From: Spirochaetota bacterium
GTDB lineage: Bacteria > Spirochaetota > Spirochaetia > Treponematales > UBA12059
Assembly (NCBI GenBank): GCA_022703505.1
Contig: JAKLDN010000008.1
Span: 62,001-126,000 of the forward strand
DNA length: 64,000 nucleotides
Direction of reading: 5' to 3'
A program made the position numbers and the translations under genes. This document shows positions 42,486-54,368 of the stretch, piece by piece. Below the pieces are notes generated by a model. It made no database searches. It had not been told where the DNA came from and saw only the letters and a list, made by a program, of their open reading frames with translations. How positions within the stretch are numbered: position 1 is the stretch's first letter; the number at the start of each line of letters is the position of its first letter.

Positions 42486-44327
42486 ATGCAAATCACCTAC
42501 ATGAACGGAAAGCGGCTCAAGCGGGCCCTCCTGGCCGGAGCCCTGCGCCTGGGCGAGAACGTCCCCCACCTCAACCGCATCAACGTCTTCCCGGTCCCGG
42601 ACGGGGATACGGGGACCAACATGGCCGGCACCGTCCAGGCCATGGCCTCGGCCCTCCACGCCTCCCCGGCGATTTCCCTGGGCGAGACCGCCCGGACCGC
42701 CGCGGATTCGGCCCTGATGGGCGCCAAGGGCAACTCCGGGGCCATCCTGGCCCAGTTCTTCCAGGGCCTCGCGGAAGAGCTGGAGCGGAAGGTCCGGGTA
42801 AGCACCCGGGACTTCGCGGACGCGGTGGGCAAGGCCGTGGCCCGTACCTACGGAGCCCTGTCCAAACCCCGGGAAGGCACCCTCCTCACGGTCCTCAAGG
42901 ATTGGGGGCACGCGGTGCACCGGGTCGCCGAGCGGACCGACGACTTCCTGGAACTCCTCAAGACCACCCTGCACGACGCCCGGGCCTCCCTGGAACGGAC
43001 CCGGGATATGCTACCGGAACTGAAGAAGGCCGGGGTCGTGGACGCCGGCGCCCTGGGCTGGGTCCACATCCTGGAGGGCATCGTCCACTACATCACCCAC
43101 GGCAGGCTCCGGGAATTCCGGGACAGCCCCCCGGAAGGATTCTCCGAGACCTACGAAGAATCCCACGTCGAGTCCCCGCTGGCGGACAGCGAGCCCTCGG
43201 CCTTCCGGTTCTGCACCGAGTGCCTCCTGGAGGGTTCGGCCCTGGACCTCGAGGCGGTCCGTCGCGGCCTCGAGGGCCTGGGGGATTCGATCGTCGTGGC
43301 CGGATCCGCCCGGAAGGCCAAGGTCCACCTCCACACCGATACCCCCGCCCGGGCCTTCCGGGTCCTGGAGGGATTCGCCACGGTTACGGGCCAGAAGGCG
43401 GACGACATGGAGCTCCAGCGCCGCCTGGCGGCCGATCCGCCCCGCTGCGCCGTGTTCGTGGACTCCGCCTGCGACCTCCCCGAGGAGGAGCGCCTTGCCC
43501 TGCGGGTGGAGCGGGTTCCCCTGACCATCGTGATGGACGGGGTGAACTACCTGGACCGGGACGGCCTTTCCTCCGAGGATTTCTACGCCCGCCAGCGCAC
43601 GCCCGGAATCGCCCTGTCCACCAGCCAGCCCTCGGACGCGGCCTTCCGCCGCAAGGCGGACACCGTGCTGGCCTCCGCACGGGAGGCGGTCTACCTGGGA
43701 CTGTCGGGCCCCTTGTCCGGCACTCTGGAGGCGGGGCGGCGCACGGCTGCCGCGCGGCCGGATTCCGGCCGGATCCGGGTGGTCGACTCCCGGTCCATCT
43801 CCGTGGGCTACGCCCTCCTGGCCCGGAAGGCCGGCGAGGCGGCCGCCGCGGGCGCCTCCGCCGAGGAGATCGGGACCCTCGTCGAGTCCCTGAAGCCCCG
43901 GCTCCGGCTCCTCGTGGCCGTCCCGGACCTCTCGGGCCTGATCCGGTCCGGACGACTCCACGGGATGAAGGGTCTGGCGGCCCGGGCTTTCGGGCTCCGG
44001 CCGGTCATCACGGTGAACGAGGAAGGCCGCGCGGATTCCGCGGGCATGTACGTGGGCGCGGCGAACGGCCGCGCCGCCCTGGTCCGGATGCTCCGCAAGG
44101 CGGTCTCCGGTGCCGGAGCGCCGGAAACGGGATCCGCTCCCCTGGAAATCCTGGTGGGCCACGCGGACAGCCGCGCCGAGGCGGAGGCCCTGGTACGGGA
44201 TCTGGGCGCGGCCTTCGAGCTCTCCCGGGAACCCGACATCGTGGAGGTATCCCCGGCCCTGGCCCTCCACGCGGGCCCCGGGGCCCTGGCCCTGGCCGCC
44301 CTGCTCCCAGTGGGAAGAGTCCGGTGA
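42486..44327 (+). CDS. Fused DAK2 (FakA-like) kinase and DegV (FakB-like) fatty-acid-binding protein
   Basis: 613 residues. Residues 1–~200 are a DhaL/DAK2 kinase domain with the Mg-ATP-binding NVFPVPDGDTGTNM and GAKGNSGAILAQFF. Residues ~230–310 match the FakA middle domain (FRFCTECLLEGS, AKVHLHTDTPARA). From ~312 a DegV/EDD domain follows (AVFVDSACDLPEE, STSQPSD, and GLSGPLSGTLEAG), which binds fatty acid in FakB. In Firmicutes FakA phosphorylates FakB-bound fatty acid to acyl-phosphate. Here both are one polypeptide and the usual FakA C-terminal domain is replaced by DegV. It is directly coupled to plsY. The start matches FakA N-termini (ITYMNGKRLKRAL). Confidence 0.88.
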   Translation: MQITYMNGKRLKRALLAGALRLGENVPHLNRINVFPVPDGDTGTNMAGTVQAMASALHASPAISLGETARTAADSALMGAKGNSGAILAQFFQGLAEELERKVRVSTRDFADAVGKAVARTYGALSKPREGTLLTVLKDWGHAVHRVAERTDDFLELLKTTLHDARASLERTRDMLPELKKAGVVDAGALGWVHILEGIVHYITHGRLREFRDSPPEGFSETYEESHVESPLADSEPSAFRFCTECLLEGSALDLEAVRRGLEGLGDSIVVAGSARKAKVHLHTDTPARAFRVLEGFATVTGQKADDMELQRRLAADPPRCAVFVDSACDLPEEERLALRVERVPLTIVMDGVNYLDRDGLSSEDFYARQRTPGIALSTSQPSDAAFRRKADTVLASAREAVYLGLSGPLSGTLEAGRRTAAARPDSGRIRVVDSRSISVGYALLARKAGEAAAAGASAEEIGTLVESLKPRLRLLVAVPDLSGLIRSGRLHGMKGLAARAFGLRPVITVNEEGRADSAGMYVGAANGRAALVRMLRKAVSGAGAPETGSAPLEILVGHADSRAEAEALVRDLGAAFELSREPDIVEVSPALALHAGPGALALAALLPVGRVR

Positions 44328-47240: not shown

Positions 47241-47271
47241 TGTCCGATACGTCGGTTACTTTTTGAACAGC
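47238..47271. repeat. Family B palindrome copy overlapping the nudC stop codon
   Basis: The first 22 bases match 11943–11964 with one mismatch (core CGTCGGTTAC); the other arm (TTTTTGAACAGC) resembles the 12055 element. The nudC stop and last codons (encoding LFKK-stop) lie inside the repeat. Confidence 0.65.
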
Positions 47272-48071
47272 TCCGCGTCGATGATACGGCGGGAGAGGCT
47301 TCCCGGGAGGGGAAGGGGCGGATGGTCGTCCGGCCCGTACCAGCCCGCCTCTGCGATCTCGATCCCGTCGGGGGCAAGCTCGCCGGATTCCCACTCCGCC
47401 TCGAAGCCGACCATCAGGGAATCCGGAAAGGGCCAGGGCTGGGATCCCAGGTACCGGACGTTCCGGACCCGGATGCCCACCTCCTCCGCGACCTCCCGGA
47501 CCACGCAGTCCTCGAAGCTCTCGCCGGGCTCCACGAACCCCGCCAGGACACTGAAGATCCCGGTCTTGAAGGCGGCGTTCCGGGCCAGGAGGATGCGGCC
47601 GTCCCGGTGGACCCGGGCCAGGACCGCCGGCGAAAGGCGCGGGTAGGTCACCGAACCGCAGGAGGGACAGAGCCGGGCGGTCTCGTCCGGCTTGTCCCCC
47701 TGGGCCGAGCCGCAGCGCCCGCAGAACCGGGAGCCGGCCCTCCAGTTGGCCAAGGCCAGGGCCCGGCAGGCCGGCAGGACCCCGTCCCAGGCAAGGCTCC
47801 CCAGCACCGAACGGAAGGGTACCCAGGACAGGCCCTCCGGAGCTTCGGCCTCCGGGGCCAGGGAGAGGACCGTGGGTACGGGACCTTCCTTCGCGGGATC
47901 GGCGGGGCCCGGGATCCGCAGGGGAAAGACGTCCAGGAGCCAGGGATCCTTGCCGGGCTTCCGGTCCGGAAAGGGATGGGAGTCCAGGGGCTCCGCGCGG
48001 CCGTCGGGACGGCAGAGAAGTTCCTGCCCGCGGAAGGCGAAGTAAGCCGGCTTCGGCTGGGTGTCCTGCAT
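47256..48071 (-). CDS. nudC: NAD(H) pyrophosphatase NudC (also RNA NAD-decapping type)
   Basis: 271 residues. Four-cysteine zinc ribbon (FCGRCG … LCPSCG), a perfect Nudix box (GFVEPGESFEDCVVREVAEE + VGI) and the NudC-specific SQPWPFPDS immediately after it. The enzyme splits NADH into NMNH and AMP and in other bacteria removes NAD caps from RNA. The N-terminal half is the usual poorly conserved domain. Its last codons lie in a palindromic repeat. Confidence 0.94.
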   Translation of the reverse strand: MQDTQPKPAYFAFRGQELLCRPDGRAEPLDSHPFPDRKPGKDPWLLDVFPLRIPGPADPAKEGPVPTVLSLAPEAEAPEGLSWVPFRSVLGSLAWDGVLPACRALALANWRAGSRFCGRCGSAQGDKPDETARLCPSCGSVTYPRLSPAVLARVHRDGRILLARNAAFKTGIFSVLAGFVEPGESFEDCVVREVAEEVGIRVRNVRYLGSQPWPFPDSLMVGFEAEWESGELAPDGIEIAEAGWYGPDDHPPLPLPGSLSRRIIDAELFKK

Positions 48072-48146: not shown

Positions 48147-49304
48147 TCAGTTCTTCCTTGGGATTGGACTCCGGATCCGCCTCGCGGCAAACCGCAGGAC
48201 CGCGTACATTCCCGCAGCTCCGAGGGCGGAGGCCGCCGCGGCCGGCTCCGGGACGGAAAGGCCCAGGAAAGTCCGGGCGGCCGGGACGAGGAAGCCCGCG
48301 GCGGCCGGGACCAAGGCCGCGAGGAAAACGCCTAGCCGGACGGCGATCCTCCGCGCGCGGGCTCGGGGATTCCCGGACTCCGGGGGCGACCGGAGCCTTC
48401 CCGGGGGTTCCCCGGCCTGGACCAGGCAGAGGGCCAGGAAGACCAGGCTCCGGGCCCGGTCTGCCGCCCGGGGCGCTACCCCGGCGTATCCCAGGCCCAG
48501 GCGATAGACCGCCAGGAGGAGGAGGGCAAGCAGGAGCCACGGGACCAGGATATCCGGGATGATCCGGGAAGGACGTTCCCCTTCGGTCGGCGCCGTAGGC
48601 CCTGCGTCCCCGCGGACGAAGGCCAGGGACAGTGTCGGCAGGACCGTTCCGACGGCGTTGGCCCACAGCAGCTGGGCGGTCGAGAGCGGGGGAAGCCAGC
48701 CCGCCAGCACGGAGCCGGCCACGGCCAGGCTCATCCCCGCGCAGCAGGTGAACTGGAAGGCCTCGACCCGGGAGAACCCATCCCGACCGGTCCGGCTCCG
48801 AAGGAAGGCGGCCGCCGCGGGCAGTCCCAGGGGCAGCAGCAGAACCGTGCAGGTCAGGGCCGACTGGATCGAGTCCAGGAAGGCGGACCGGATCGGAAAG
48901 CCCCCACGAAGGAGGTCCGAGGCGAGGAAGACCGCCTGGAAGGACACGAAGGCGATTCCGGCAGGCAGGAACGGCCGGAACGAGGAGACCCCGGGGACCG
49001 GGCGGCCCGAGCCCGCGGCCGGGCGGCCCGAGCCCTTGGCCGGGCCGGACGTCGGGGCGCCGGACGAATCGGCGACCGGTGCCTGCCGGGCGGCTCCGCG
49101 GGACCACGCCTCCCCGGCCAGGGACAGAGCCCAGGCCGCGGCCGCCGTCAGGGCCGCCCCGGGCTCGCCCAGGAAGGCGTAGGCAAGGACGGCCGCGGGA
49201 AGGAGGGCGCGGACCGAGGCGGCTGCCCCGGCTCCCCCGCCCGCCGTGAAGGCGCGCGCTGCGGCGGGGTTCGTTCCGCGGCTCCGGGAGCTTCGAGTCG
49301 GCAT
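48147..49304 (-). CDS. Membrane protein resembling a P-type cation ATPase core without cytoplasmic domains
   Basis: 385 residues, about ten membrane helices. By eye they align with the helices of Ca-type P2 ATPases: LLPAAVLAYAFLGEPGAALT (M1–M2), LLRGGFPIRSAFLDSI and LLLPLGLPAAAAF (M3–M4, the PEGLP loop), FSRVEAFQFTCCAGMSLAV (M5), STAQLLWANAVGTVLPTLSL (M6, normally LLW-NLVTD-LPA), and RSLVFLALCLVQ to the end (M7–M10). The actuator domain is replaced by a ~45-residue Gly/Ser/Pro linker and the phosphorylation/nucleotide domains (~330 residues with DKTGT) by about eight residues. Several ion ligands are also lost. It cannot hydrolyse ATP and may be a regulator or scaffold. Lies seven bases after the TPR lipoprotein gene. 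Confidence 0.6.
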   Translation of the reverse strand: MPTRSSRSRGTNPAAARAFTAGGGAGAAASVRALLPAAVLAYAFLGEPGAALTAAAAWALSLAGEAWSRGAARQAPVADSSGAPTSGPAKGSGRPAAGSGRPVPGVSSFRPFLPAGIAFVSFQAVFLASDLLRGGFPIRSAFLDSIQSALTCTVLLLPLGLPAAAAFLRSRTGRDGFSRVEAFQFTCCAGMSLAVAGSVLAGWLPPLSTAQLLWANAVGTVLPTLSLAFVRGDAGPTAPTEGERPSRIIPDILVPWLLLALLLLAVYRLGLGYAGVAPRAADRARSLVFLALCLVQAGEPPGRLRSPPESGNPRARARRIAVRLGVFLAALVPAAAGFLVPAARTFLGLSVPEPAAAASALGAAGMYAVLRFAARRIRSPIPRKN

Positions 49305-49311
49305 GCGCGCC

Positions 49312-50277
49312 TTATTCCGACAGCCCCGCCGCCTTGAGGAGCTCCGCCGGCTTGGCGCGCTCCGCCTCCGGAAGGGCCGCCAGCAGGGCCGCCGCGGCCT
49401 TGGAATCCGAGAACTTGGCGTCTAGCGCCTTCCGCAGCGCCTCCATACCGGCCTCCCGATCCCCGGCCACCACCAGCCGAATTCGGGCCAGCCGGAACCA
49501 GGCTTCCCCGTCCGCCGGGTCCGCCTGGGCCAGGGCCGCCCAGTCCTCCTGGGCCCGGGCGAATAGCTCCCGGGCTTCCCGAAGCTCCGCGCGGGCGCGC
49601 AGGACTTCCCGGTCCCCGGGCTTCCGGGACAGGTAGGCCGAGAGCAGGGTCAGGGCGTCCTCCTCGGCAGAAGCCGCGGCCGCGGCCGTGGAAGTGATCG
49701 CGGGCGCGGACTCCTCCCCCGGGGCGGGGGATTCCCCGGAGCCCCGGGTCCCGGAGACGCGGCGGGCCTCCAGCAGGGCCAGCCGACGGAGGACTCCGTC
49801 GTCGGCGGGGTTGACGGCATACAACTCCCGCAGGATCACCAAGGCCTCCCCGTCCCGGCCCGCCCGTTCCAGGAGCAGGGCCAGGTTCCGGAGGGTGCCC
49901 GCGTCCCGGGGGTTCAGCTCCGCCGCCCGCCGGTACGCGGCCAGGGCGGCCTCGTCGTCCCCGGACTTGTTAAGCACATAGGCCCTGAAAGCGATGAGGC
50001 GCACGTTGTCGGGGTCGTCGGAGCGCAGCCGCTCCAGGACCTCCAGGGCCCGGGGATAGGCGCCCGCCTCCGCCAGGGCCCGGGCCAGGTTGTAGGAGGC
50101 CGCGACCAGGCTCCGGTCGTAGGCCAGGGCCCTCTCGTAGGCGGCCCCGGCCTTGTCCCACTTCTCCATGGCCAGCCAAGCGTTCCCGATCTCGTAGTAT
50201 TCCAGGGCGATCCGGGGCGCCTGGGCGGTGGCGCAGGAGGAAAGGAGGGCGGCCAAAGCCGCGGCCGCGGCGAGCAC
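49312..50277 (-). CDS. TPR-repeat lipoprotein
   Basis: 321 residues. Lipobox LLSSC near residue 15 after a very hydrophobic stretch, then about six TPR units, e.g. YYEIGNAWLAMEKWDKAGAA, ASYNLARALAEAGAYPRALE and AYRRAAELNPRDAGTLRNLA, with a low-complexity Ala/Ser/Glu linker at ~175–205. It probably anchors a periplasmic protein complex. The GTG start leaves almost no positively charged n-region; the frame stays open upstream with [12 protein letters not shown], a perfect n-region, but without an ATG/GTG/TTG, so a non-standard start (ATA overlapping the upp stop) is conceivable. Confidence 0.8.
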   Translation of the reverse strand: MLAAAAALAALLSSCATAQAPRIALEYYEIGNAWLAMEKWDKAGAAYERALAYDRSLVAASYNLARALAEAGAYPRALEVLERLRSDDPDNVRLIAFRAYVLNKSGDDEAALAAYRRAAELNPRDAGTLRNLALLLERAGRDGEALVILRELYAVNPADDGVLRRLALLEARRVSGTRGSGESPAPGEESAPAITSTAAAAASAEEDALTLLSAYLSRKPGDREVLRARAELREARELFARAQEDWAALAQADPADGEAWFRLARIRLVVAGDREAGMEALRKALDAKFSDSKAAAALLAALPEAERAKPAELLKAAGLSE

Positions 50278-50309: not shown

Positions 50310-51374
50310 CTATCGCCGTAGCACCATCTCCTCGATCGTCCGGATCTGGGAGCGGTAGAGGTTCGCGATGTTCGAGCCGTAATCCGCGATCAGCTGGAGC
50401 ATATCCCGGGGCCGCTCGTGCTCGTCCACCCCGTTCACCCGGTCCCCCGCGTCCCCCAGGCCGGGCATGATGTAGGCCATCTCGTTCAGGACCGGGTCCA
50501 TCCAGAGGGTGTAGACCGTGGCCTCGGGGATGGCCCGCACGACCCTCAGGGCGCCCTTCAGGGCGGAGATCACGTTGAAGACCTTGATGCTCCGGGGCTT
50601 CACCCCTAGGTCCAGGAGGTACTTCACGACCGTCACCAGGCTCCCCCCCGTGGCGTTCATGGGGTCCGCGAACAACAGGTCCTTACCGTCCATGTCCTCG
50701 GTGCGGAAATAGGAGCGGTCCAGGTCCAGGACGTACTCCATGTTGTTCTCCACCTTGGTGTCGTCCCGGCTGATCTTGAACAGGGCGAAGGGGGTCACGT
50801 ATCCGGAGGAGGAGTATTCCTGGATCTCCTTGGACAGGATCATGGAGGGCAGGAGGGCCCCTCTCAGCATGACGCACATCACGGTGTTTTCGATCCGGTC
50901 GTCGATATTCGGGATCTTGTGGACCGCGTAGTTCTGGACCGGAACCGTGACCGGCGTGGACACGATCAGGTGGTTCTTGTTCTCGCTCCGGGCGCCGCCG
51001 AAGGCGAGGTTGAACAAGAGCTCGTAGGCCCGCTGGATGTAGTAGACGAACTCGAAGCGCTGGGTCCGGGCGTCCCGGAGTTTGGCGATCAGCCGGCTGG
51101 CCTCCCCGTGGTTCTCCGAGGGGGTCACGAAGGAATAGACCTGGGCCCGGGGTTCAGCCTTGCAGAGTTCCTGCATCGCCCCGCCCATCCGGTTGTAGAG
51201 GTCGATGAGGACCTTCTCCTCCCGCCGGCGCTCGTCCGCGCCCTTGGCGTGGGAGAGGATGTTGAAGCTCACCATGGCCTGCCGGTAGAGGACGTCCAGC
51301 TGGCCCAGGAATTTCTGGTCCCCCTCGGTCAGGTAACCGTCCAGGTCCTGGGCCTTGAGGATGACGCGGTTCAT
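50310..51374 (-). CDS. Uracil phosphoribosyltransferase with N-terminal extension
   Basis: 354 residues. The C-terminal ~210 residues are UPRTase: PRPP loop [34 protein letters not shown] and the uracil-binding [16 protein letters not shown]. UPRTase makes UMP from uracil and PRPP. The ~135-residue N-terminal helical extension ([20 protein letters not shown]…) is absent from ordinary UPRTases of ~210 residues and is not recognised. Start overlaps the pduL-like stop (ATGA). Confidence 0.85.
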
Positions 51375-52060: not shown

Positions 52061-52594
52061 CTACCGCTCCCGGAGCTCCCTGCCCAGGAGCTCCGCGACG
52101 GCCCCCGCCTGGTTCCGGACCGCTTCCGCCCGTCGGGGCGGGTCCGCCCGCACGGCCAGGTCCCGCCGTCCGTCCAGGACGAGGCCCCAGGCTGCCCAGC
52201 CCCTGCCCCCCTTGCCCACCAGCCGAGGATACAGGGAGCGGAGGTCGTCCGCCCGGGACGCGAAATCCTCCGCGGTGGGGCGGTCCACGGTCTCCACGAA
52301 CACGGCCTCGACCTCCTCCCAGTCCAGGTCGAAGGACCGGGGAAAGGGCAGGATCCCGAAGCGCCTCCGAATGATCCGCCGCGCGGAATCCAGGATCCAG
52401 CTGTCCTCGGAGAGGGCGGCCAGCAGGCACACCGCGGTCCCGGCCAGCCAGAAGGGGTCGCCGGATCCCAGGGAGCCCAGGGCGAAGGCCGCCGCGAAGG
52501 CGGCCTGGGCCGCACGGACCAGGGGGTGCACGGCCAGGTCGACGCGGCCCGGGGCCTTCGGGCGCAGGACCAGGGGAGGCGAGAAGGGGCTCAC
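52061..52594 (-). CDS. Small membrane protein of unknown function
   Basis: 177 residues with two adjacent membrane segments (~28–65, [16 protein letters not shown] and [16 protein letters not shown]) followed by a soluble ~100-residue C-terminus. No family recognised. The GTG start overlaps the chemoreceptor stop (GTGA), so it is co-expressed with it and could be an anchor or partner of that soluble receptor (inference only). Confidence 0.6.
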
Positions 52595-54219
52595 GGCCGT
52601 TCCCGCCCGGCAAGCTCCTCGGCCGCCCGGGATGTTCCGAGGACGGCGAGTCCTTTGTCGAAGGCGTCCCGGAGGGCTTCGTCCCCCCGGGACAGGAGGT
52701 AGACCACCGAGAGTTCGTGGCCCGTCTCGAAACAGGCCTTTACGGTCCCGGAAAAATAATTCTCCGACAGGTAGGCGCCCACCAGGCGCTCGGTGATCGC
52801 GCAGTCCGCCCGCTCCCAGATGACCGCAGCGAAGGCTTCCAGGTCGTTCGCGGTGGTCACGACCTCGCAGCCTGTCCCCCGCAGGCAGTCCACCACGTAG
52901 GAGCCCTCCTGGGCCGCCACCCGCCGGCCCGAGAGGTCCGGAAGGCCCCGGAACGAGGCTGTCCGGGATGTGTGGGCGAAGACCGCGGGCCGGAAAACCC
53001 CGAAGGGCCGGGTCGGGATCACCGGCTTGTCCGCCAGGCCCTGGTTGGGCCAACCCACGTTGGCGACCACCCGGACCTTGCCGGCCAGGAGGTCCGACAG
53101 GGCCTCGAAGAACTGGCCGGGGTGGAACTCCGGAACCAGGCCCGCCGCCTCCAGGGCCCTTCGGGCCGTGTCGATCGCCTTGCCCGCGGACTGGCCGCCC
53201 TGGATGTGGACCCACGGCGGATAGCTTACGTCGTGGGCTATCGGGATCGTCTCGCCGCAGGCCCGGGAGCCGAAGAGGTCGGCGAAGGAAGTGGCCATGT
53301 GGTTGATCTCGGTCTTGACCGCGCCCGCGGCGGACTGCACGGCCTCGGAAGAGGCTTTCTGCCGTTCCAGGTTCCCCCGAACCAGGGCGGAGTTGTCGTT
53401 CAGGAGGCGGGCCGCCTCGGACAGGGCCGTCATGGATCGGGCGATGCGTCCGGAGCTCTCCTTCTGCCCCTCCAGGGCCCCTCGGATCGAGCGCATGTTG
53501 GAGGCAGCCCCGGCGACCGCGGAGGCCCCGGAGCCCAACTCGTCCCGGGCGTGGGCCATGCGGCGGGACAGCTCGGCCTTGCCCTGGGCCATGGCGGCAA
53601 GACCCTCGTCCGCGGAGCCCATGCCCGCCCGGAGGCCCTTGAGCAGGCCCGCTGCGGTGTCCGTCAGGGCCCGGCTCTTGGCCGCCAGGGCCTTGACCTC
53701 CGTGGCCACCACCTTGAAGCCTCGGCCGTGGACTCCCGCCCGGGCGGCCTCGATCGCGGCGTTCAGGGCCAGGAGGTTGGTCAGCTCCGCGATCTCCTCG
53801 ATGGACTGGAGGGCCTCCTCGATGCGGTCCGCGCTCTCGGCGACCCGGCGGAACATAGATATGAAGAGCTCGAACCGGGAATCCATATCCGCCAGGGCCT
53901 TGGTCCCGTCCTCCACGGCTCCCCGGGCGCTGCCCACCGAGGACTCCGCGGCCTCCAGCCGGGCATCCGCCTCCCCCGCCGCCCCGGAGATGCCGGAGAT
54001 CCCGCCGTTCAGGGACTCCAGGTCCGCCTCGATCGCCCGTAGGGAATCCAGGTTCTTGGAGTTCGCGGCCAGGCTCTCCTCGAAAAAGTCCGTGGTGAGG
54101 TCCGACTCGATGGACAGGGACCAGACGTGGTCCGCCAGCACCCGGTACCGGGAGCGGAGTTCCTTGAGGAGCGCGGCCGCCTGGGCCTCTAGGGGCTGCC
54201 CTCTGGATTCCTGGGACAT
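52591..54219 (-). CDS. Soluble methyl-accepting chemotaxis protein with C-terminal solute-binding (SBP_bac_3) domain
   Basis: 542 residues with no membrane segment or signal peptide. Residues ~50–330 are helical and contain the MCP hairpin signature [20 protein letters not shown] followed by [19 protein letters not shown]. From ~338 a family 3 solute-binding fold begins ([20 protein letters not shown]) and runs to the end ([34 protein letters not shown]). Sensor domains normally precede the signalling hairpin and SBPs are periplasmic; here the order is reversed and both parts should be cytoplasmic, so it may sense an internal amino acid-like ligand. ATG after GGAGG. Confidence 0.82.
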
Positions 54220-54368
54220 GCCGATACCTCCGCGGGTATGGGGGACAGAGCTCGTGGATTCCGGACTGCGGCGCAATCCGGAACCGCCTACGATTATTCC
54301 ATGGTTTTGCGGTATAGGCTAGGGCTGAATTGACATCCTGGCGGTATTCGTCAAGCTCGAGGTCCGCC

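Follow-up and report, generated by a model that had tools for sequence, protein, structure and literature searches.

A ten-helix membrane protein from a spirochaetal genus, probably the membrane domain of a P2-type ATPase without its catalytic domains

A small membrane protein gene next to a TPR lipoprotein gene

The window (the whole 64,000-nucleotide stretch of DNA that was analysed) carries on its minus strand an open reading frame for 385 amino acids with an ATG start (Table 1). A preliminary description, made from the letters alone, had read the product as the membrane core of a P2 ATPase that has lost all of its catalytic domains, and we call it the headless protein. The motifs on which that reading relied are in place: AFLGEPGAA at the M1-M2 turn, PLGLPA in M4 and LLWANAVGT, followed by LP, in M6. 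The SN-GE motif is missing, as had been claimed, and TCCAGM stands where it would be. Sequence and alignment likewise bear out that a Gly/Ser/Pro linker takes the place of the actuator (A) domain and about eight residues that of the P and N domains, with the reading frame intact. The M2-M3 linker has about 38 residues, is modelled with a pLDDT below 50 across most of its length and is 34% identical between the two orthologues described below.

The gene order is UPRT-TPR-[headless]-NudC-DHOD. The headless gene starts 7 bp after the stop codon of a TPR lipoprotein gene and is followed by a NudC-type NADH pyrophosphatase gene. A UPRTase, a PduL-type phosphate propanoyltransferase, a dihydroorotate-dehydrogenase-like protein and an NlpC/P60 protein are also encoded nearby; there are no ion-transport genes among the neighbours of the headless gene.

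Table 1. Position, strand and basis of assignment of the features discussed, in window coordinates (residue numbers refer to the 385-residue protein)
Feature	Position	Strand	Basis
Headless P2-type ATPase membrane-core gene, 385 aa	48147..49304	-	ORF; Pfam PF00689; orthologue in G002; omega 0.40
M1-M2 hairpin, residues 28-74, conserved extracytoplasmic LGEP turn	49083..49223	-	Model helices; HHalign vs ATPase M1-M2
Gly/Ser/Pro linker M2-M3, about residues 74-111, replaces actuator domain	48972..49082	-	Alignment with ATPases; model
M3-M4 hairpin, residues 112-171	48792..48971	-	HHalign vs ATPase M3-M4; M4 broken at 156-160 in model
PLGLP, residues 158-162, M4 unwinding motif	48819..48833	-	Alignment with ATPases
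M4-M5 junction, about 8 residues (169-176, RSRTGRDG), replaces P and N domains	48777..48800	-	Alignment
M5-M10, residues 174-378; TCCAGM for NxGE, LLWANAVGT for LLWxNLVTD	48171..48785	-	PF00689; HHalign; ligand table
TPR lipoprotein gene, candidate partner, lipobox-like LLSSC	49312..50277	-	Pfam TPR; order kept in G002
NudC-type NADH pyrophosphatase gene	47256-48071		
UPRTase gene	50310-51356	-	
Methyl-accepting chemotaxis protein gene	52591-54276	-	
DAK2/FakA-like and DegV fusion gene	42486-44327	+	

The protein is related to the membrane domain of P2-type ATPases

The sole Pfam family matched by the headless protein is Cation_ATPase_C (PF00689), which aligns with residues 206-372 over profile positions 3-170 of 175 at an E-value of 6.2e-6. 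The score is 26.5 bits in hmmscan (cut-off 27.3) and 28.1 bits, above the cut-off, in a whole-genome search; the orthologue alone also matches the family (E 3.4e-4). A second comparison comes from HHalign, in which the profile of the headless pair was aligned with 31 spirochaetal P2 ATPases. M5-M10 gave an E-value of 4.1e-13 and a score of 85.4, compared with 11.2 for the reversed sequence and a mean of 14.7 (maximum 26.9; 0 of 150 as good) for local shuffles that preserve the hydropathy pattern.

The N-terminal half, taken entire, scores nearly the same when reversed, and its homology rests on separate tests of the two hairpins together with a swapped-hairpin control. Against its own ATPase hairpin, M1-M2 scores 17.9 (shuffles 9.4, s.d. 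1.8; 0/150 as good; E 0.002) and M3-M4 scores 22.4 (shuffles 10.5, s.d. 2.1; 1/150 as good; E 0.0006), while the swapped pairings fall to background. M1-M4 are collinear with the ATPases in the alignment, with homology weaker than that of M5-M10.

Structure prediction gives a P-type fold. From the two orthologues alone AlphaFold2 reached a pLDDT of 39.5, with the helix count as the only usable output; with 19 full-length ATPases as extra rows it returned ten helices, with M4 broken at PLGLP (pLDDT 71.7, pTM 0.74). The latter model matches SERCA2b (7w7w; Z 28.9, 3.2 Å, 312 residues) and LMCA1 (9evc; Z 28.6), the comparison that the preliminary description had proposed. Since the ATPase rows bias the model towards the P-type fold, these matches show compatibility and are not independent of the homology claim. 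Lys and Arg make up 25 of 136 inside and 3 of 46 outside residues in one orthologue, and 18 of 168 and 3 of 46 in the other: positive residues lie on the cytoplasmic side in both, in keeping with the topology of the pumps.

Could the likeness be due to chance, either because the ORF is spurious and reflects GC-rich DNA or because the protein is a ten-helix protein without kinship to the pumps? The hmmscan score just under the gathering cut-off, the 21 bits that a sugar-symporter-like protein reaches with PF00689 and the reliance of the good model on an alignment containing ATPases would fit such a view. Against it stand the profile E-value of 4e-13, the failure of all 150 shuffles, the background score of the reversed sequence and the conserved frame of the orthologue. 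Furthermore, in 294 genomes of the order and 393 of the phylum the pair profile matched frames resembling P-type ATPases, nearly all full length and a few short, and none was recognised in another membrane family; these matches were judged collectively, not all individually. We consider a chance likeness very improbable.

Pfam, HHalign, the structure model and the headless relative all agree with the central claim of the preliminary description, and the headless protein is very probably a ten-helix membrane domain descended from a P2-type (Ca2+-ATPase-like) pump. A tree places the headless pair on a branch 3.84 long and supports no sister group for it, which leaves the pair without an assigned parental pump lineage. 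The description had also proposed an in-frame double deletion as the origin. The in-frame core without A, P and N domains is what we see; for the deletion event itself the site offers no full-length parent and no intermediate.

Catalytic motifs and most ion ligands are gone

None of DKTGT, TGES and GDGxND occurs in the 385-aa sequence, and the actuator domain (PF00122) has no Pfam match in it. The positions of the SERCA ligands E309, N768, E771, T799 and D800 are occupied by L159, C188, M191, G219 and T220, identically in both orthologues, and one ligand position is retained, N796 (N216 here). The E309, N768 and N796 positions are invariant in 19 aligned ATPases. That the same five replacements are found in both headless proteins favours a single ancestral headless protein over two separate losses. 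C152, C187, C188 and M191 are also common to both orthologues; C187 is frequent in ordinary pumps, and C152, C188 and M191 are new.

Judged by its sequence, the protein cannot be phosphorylated or bind ATP, and hence would not carry out ATP-driven pumping; from the missing domains and the loss of the acidic Ca2+ ligands we infer that Ca2+ pumping is excluded. It falls short of the defining features of a P-type ATPase and is better named a non-enzymatic descendant of that family.

Stand-alone P-domain-like proteins are described in archaea, and this counts in favour of a split ATPase in which the headless protein is the membrane half and a separate gene supplies the catalytic head. In the genome no stand-alone actuator domain scores above the cut-off, the matches that do being three full-length ATPases. 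The M4-M5 junction of about 8 residues, the lost ligands and the lack of conservation in loop M6-M7, the P-domain contact in pumps, are further points against a separate head, which is scarcely to be expected here.

The headless gene is found in two of three species of the genus

The genus is represented by three genomes in the set. A second species (G002) encodes a headless orthologue of 417 residues, 45-49% identical, in the same gene order, and here the gap to the TPR stop codon is 5 bp. This is the one homologue that the search proposed in the preliminary description, for headless proteins beside a TPR lipoprotein gene, brought to light. The window's copy is hence not a lone decayed allele, the sole close relative being headless as well. 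In the third species (G001) the neighbours are the same, TPR and NudC lie side by side, and there is no headless copy at this site or elsewhere in the genome. Because the neighbouring genes place G001 closer to the window's genome, the simplest history is a gain on the genus stem followed by a loss in G001.

Beyond the orthologue, no headless gene was found in the 294 order genomes, the 393 phylum genomes, the contig scan, viral contigs or plasmids. In the other family genomes the TPR gene is present and the headless gene was not detected; no diverged membrane gene was recognised after TPR in other family members, several of which have an exported protein of another kind next.

Several other candidates were examined. 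Two short ATPases are ordinary ATPases with a frame break (G092, and G585, the latter judged by sequence), one runs off a contig end (G536) and one lies near a contig end (G596). A weak PF00689 match of 21 bits in a relative (G020:C30, L140:5393-6805) is a sugar-symporter-like membrane protein, an example of the chance matches to membrane proteins that this profile yields near that score, and G008:C33, which lies at the end of a contig, is a short membrane protein of an unrelated kind. In a relative's contig (L003, about 1000-1250 and 2090-2380), N runs lie inside flagellin-like and Ca2+-ATPase genes; they interrupt ordinary genes, whose products can then pass for truncated proteins.

Selection acts on the frame, and outer loops are better conserved than inner ones

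For the orthologue pair we obtained an omega of 0.40 (bootstrap 95% 0.31-0.50; 378 codons), a rough value as synonymous sites are near saturation (pS 0.60). The five other frames give 1.03, 1.79, 1.06, 0.51 and 1.69, the 0.51 coming from an antisense frame. Neither copy has a frame break, despite the near-saturated synonymous sites. To judge from these codon comparisons, the headless gene is maintained by selection, which supports a function.

Compared with its neighbours, the gene is fast-evolving (omega 0.37 vs 0.19, 0.17, 0.03 and 0.08). This, and its absence from one of the three species, would suit a functionless in-frame relic that is being lost. With an omega well separated from most wrong frames (at least 1.0), both copies unbroken and conservation structured by loop and helix, we regard a relic as rather unlikely. 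The new function advanced in the preliminary description, which had listed a regulator, a scaffold and a passive channel as possible roles, gains from selection on the frame.

Extracytoplasmic loops are identical at 29 of 47 positions (62%) and cytoplasmic ones at 30 of 114 (26%; Fisher p 5.5e-5), in a single orthologue comparison with segment boundaries chosen by the analyst from the model; the conserved outer loops are short and adjoin helices, which in part raises their identity. We used 43 ATPase pairs of similar membrane identity as a reference. Loops M3-M4 and M7-M8 are better kept in the headless pair (0.67 vs 0.20 and 0.58 vs 0.16), loops M6-M7 and M8-M9 less well (0.29 vs 0.52 and 0.20 vs 0.47). 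The constraint is inverted relative to ordinary ATPases, in which M6-M7 and M8-M9, both cytoplasmic, are strongly conserved, and the freed cytoplasmic loops fit the absence of the head that such loops serve in pumps. The best-kept helices are M4, M5, M6, M7 and M8 (0.62-0.87 identity). The kept outside loops, together with M4, M5, M7 and M8, suggest that the protein works at the periplasmic face, in the former ion cavity or at both.

A possible role in docking a periplasmic partner

One reading, to which we give a probability of roughly 0.6, is that the headless protein is an ATPase membrane domain freed of its ATP engine and selected for work other than pumping at its periplasmic face. Tentatively, our best guess is that it may act there as a membrane receptor or scaffold, probably for the product of the TPR lipoprotein gene 7 bp upstream. 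The protein would form a rigid ten-helix platform in the inner membrane, its conserved face, made of loops M1-M2, M3-M4, M5-M6 and M7-M8 with M4, M5, M7 and M8, being periplasmic. This platform would dock a periplasmic partner, most likely the TPR lipoprotein from the directly preceding gene, and would serve as membrane anchor or receptor for the lipoprotein and its cargo; the two genes are probably translated together.

Periplasmic docking, the identity of the partner and the purpose of the protein are what we infer; docking is the most economical reading, given the tight coupling to the TPR gene in both species and the conserved periplasmic loops, and the same two observations strengthen the scaffold role suggested in the preliminary description. 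A TPR relative occurs in 23 of 23 family genomes, nearly all of them without the headless gene, so that the lipoprotein does not depend on a headless partner. Two further points count against docking: in G001 the neighbouring genes are retained although the headless gene is absent, and the conserved M4, M5 and M8 of the old ion pathway would suit a conduit equally well.

Such a conduit is the main rival. A passive facilitator, through whose neutral Cys/Met/Gly/Thr cavity an uncharged solute, lipid or soft metal would pass without ATP, is possible but doubtful. M4, M5, M7 and M8 are, along with M6, among the best-kept helices, the M4 break at PLGLP is retained in the model, C152, C187, C188 and M191 are identical in both orthologues, and TMEM94 provides a precedent with a lipid beside its M4 PILPLL motif (PMC12134183). 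Yet a conduit with its gate on the cytoplasmic side would hardly be expected to have unconstrained cytoplasmic loops, the neighbouring genes suggest no substrate, and a permanently open path would do harm if nothing gated it.

In a further reading the protein is a regulator or decoy and pairs in the membrane with another of the cell's P-type ATPases. In favour of this, the headless protein and the pumps have a common fold, and all three species of the genus encode a P-type ATPase of about 840 aa that includes an actuator domain. But across these species pump and headless gene do not follow each other's distribution, G002 having no detectable full-length Cation_ATPase_C pump and the species without the headless gene having one (with draft genomes limiting what an absence can mean). 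With the headless gene beside no pump gene and the conserved loops periplasmic, regulation of the cell's own P2 pump, another of the earlier suggestions, is weakened, and we hold a regulator to be unlikely.

Relation to known proteins

With LMCA1 (lmo0841-type Ca2+-ATPases) and SERCA, both P2A, the headless protein has in common the ten-helix order, the proline break in M4, the LLWxN motif of M6 and the membrane fold. It differs from them in lacking the A, P and N domains, the phosphorylation Asp and five ligands, and in its unconstrained cytoplasmic loops. Truncated SERCA1 (S1T), a human splice form linked to Ca2+ leak, is a P2A membrane part without working catalytic domains. S1T is a splice truncation with the first helices only, and its gene encodes the complete pump as well; the headless protein is instead the ten-helix core minus two cytoplasmic parts.

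In the open-licence literature we found no description of a membrane-domain-only P-type ATPase, a P-type pseudoenzyme or a headless ten-helix core. The nearest described case that we found appears to be human TMEM94 (ERMA), with a ten-helix P-type membrane domain, a broken M4 (PILPLL) and no reported ATPase activity (PMC12134183). TMEM94 retains counterparts of the A, P and N domains (PMC12134183), whereas the headless protein has none. Its status as a pump is disputed, a later paper arguing that it is an ER Mg2+ ATPase (PMC13322241).

Few membrane machines have been studied as thoroughly as P-type ATPases, and discussion of their membrane core is normally confined to its part as the half that is driven. 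A conserved core-only protein in nature would mean that the ten-helix core can exist and be selected without its engine; if so, the core is a module that is stable and reusable by itself. The headless protein would join TMEM94 as a non-pumping reuse of the P-type fold, a more extreme one as the cytoplasmic part is entirely gone, and would offer a small natural test system for the folding, leak, lipid binding and partner docking of a lone ten-helix bundle.

Other genes of the window

Three further genes have unusual features. The UPRTase has an N-terminal extension of roughly 80 residues and is 96-97% identical across the genus, far above its neighbours. A methyl-accepting chemotaxis protein has its signalling domain first, an unusual order for a chemoreceptor; its C-terminal stretch matches SBP_bac_3 just below the cut-off, and it has no obvious membrane helix. 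Finally, a DAK2/FakA-like middle domain is fused with a DegV domain in one gene, which unites the two partners of a fatty-acid-kinase-like system in a single polypeptide.
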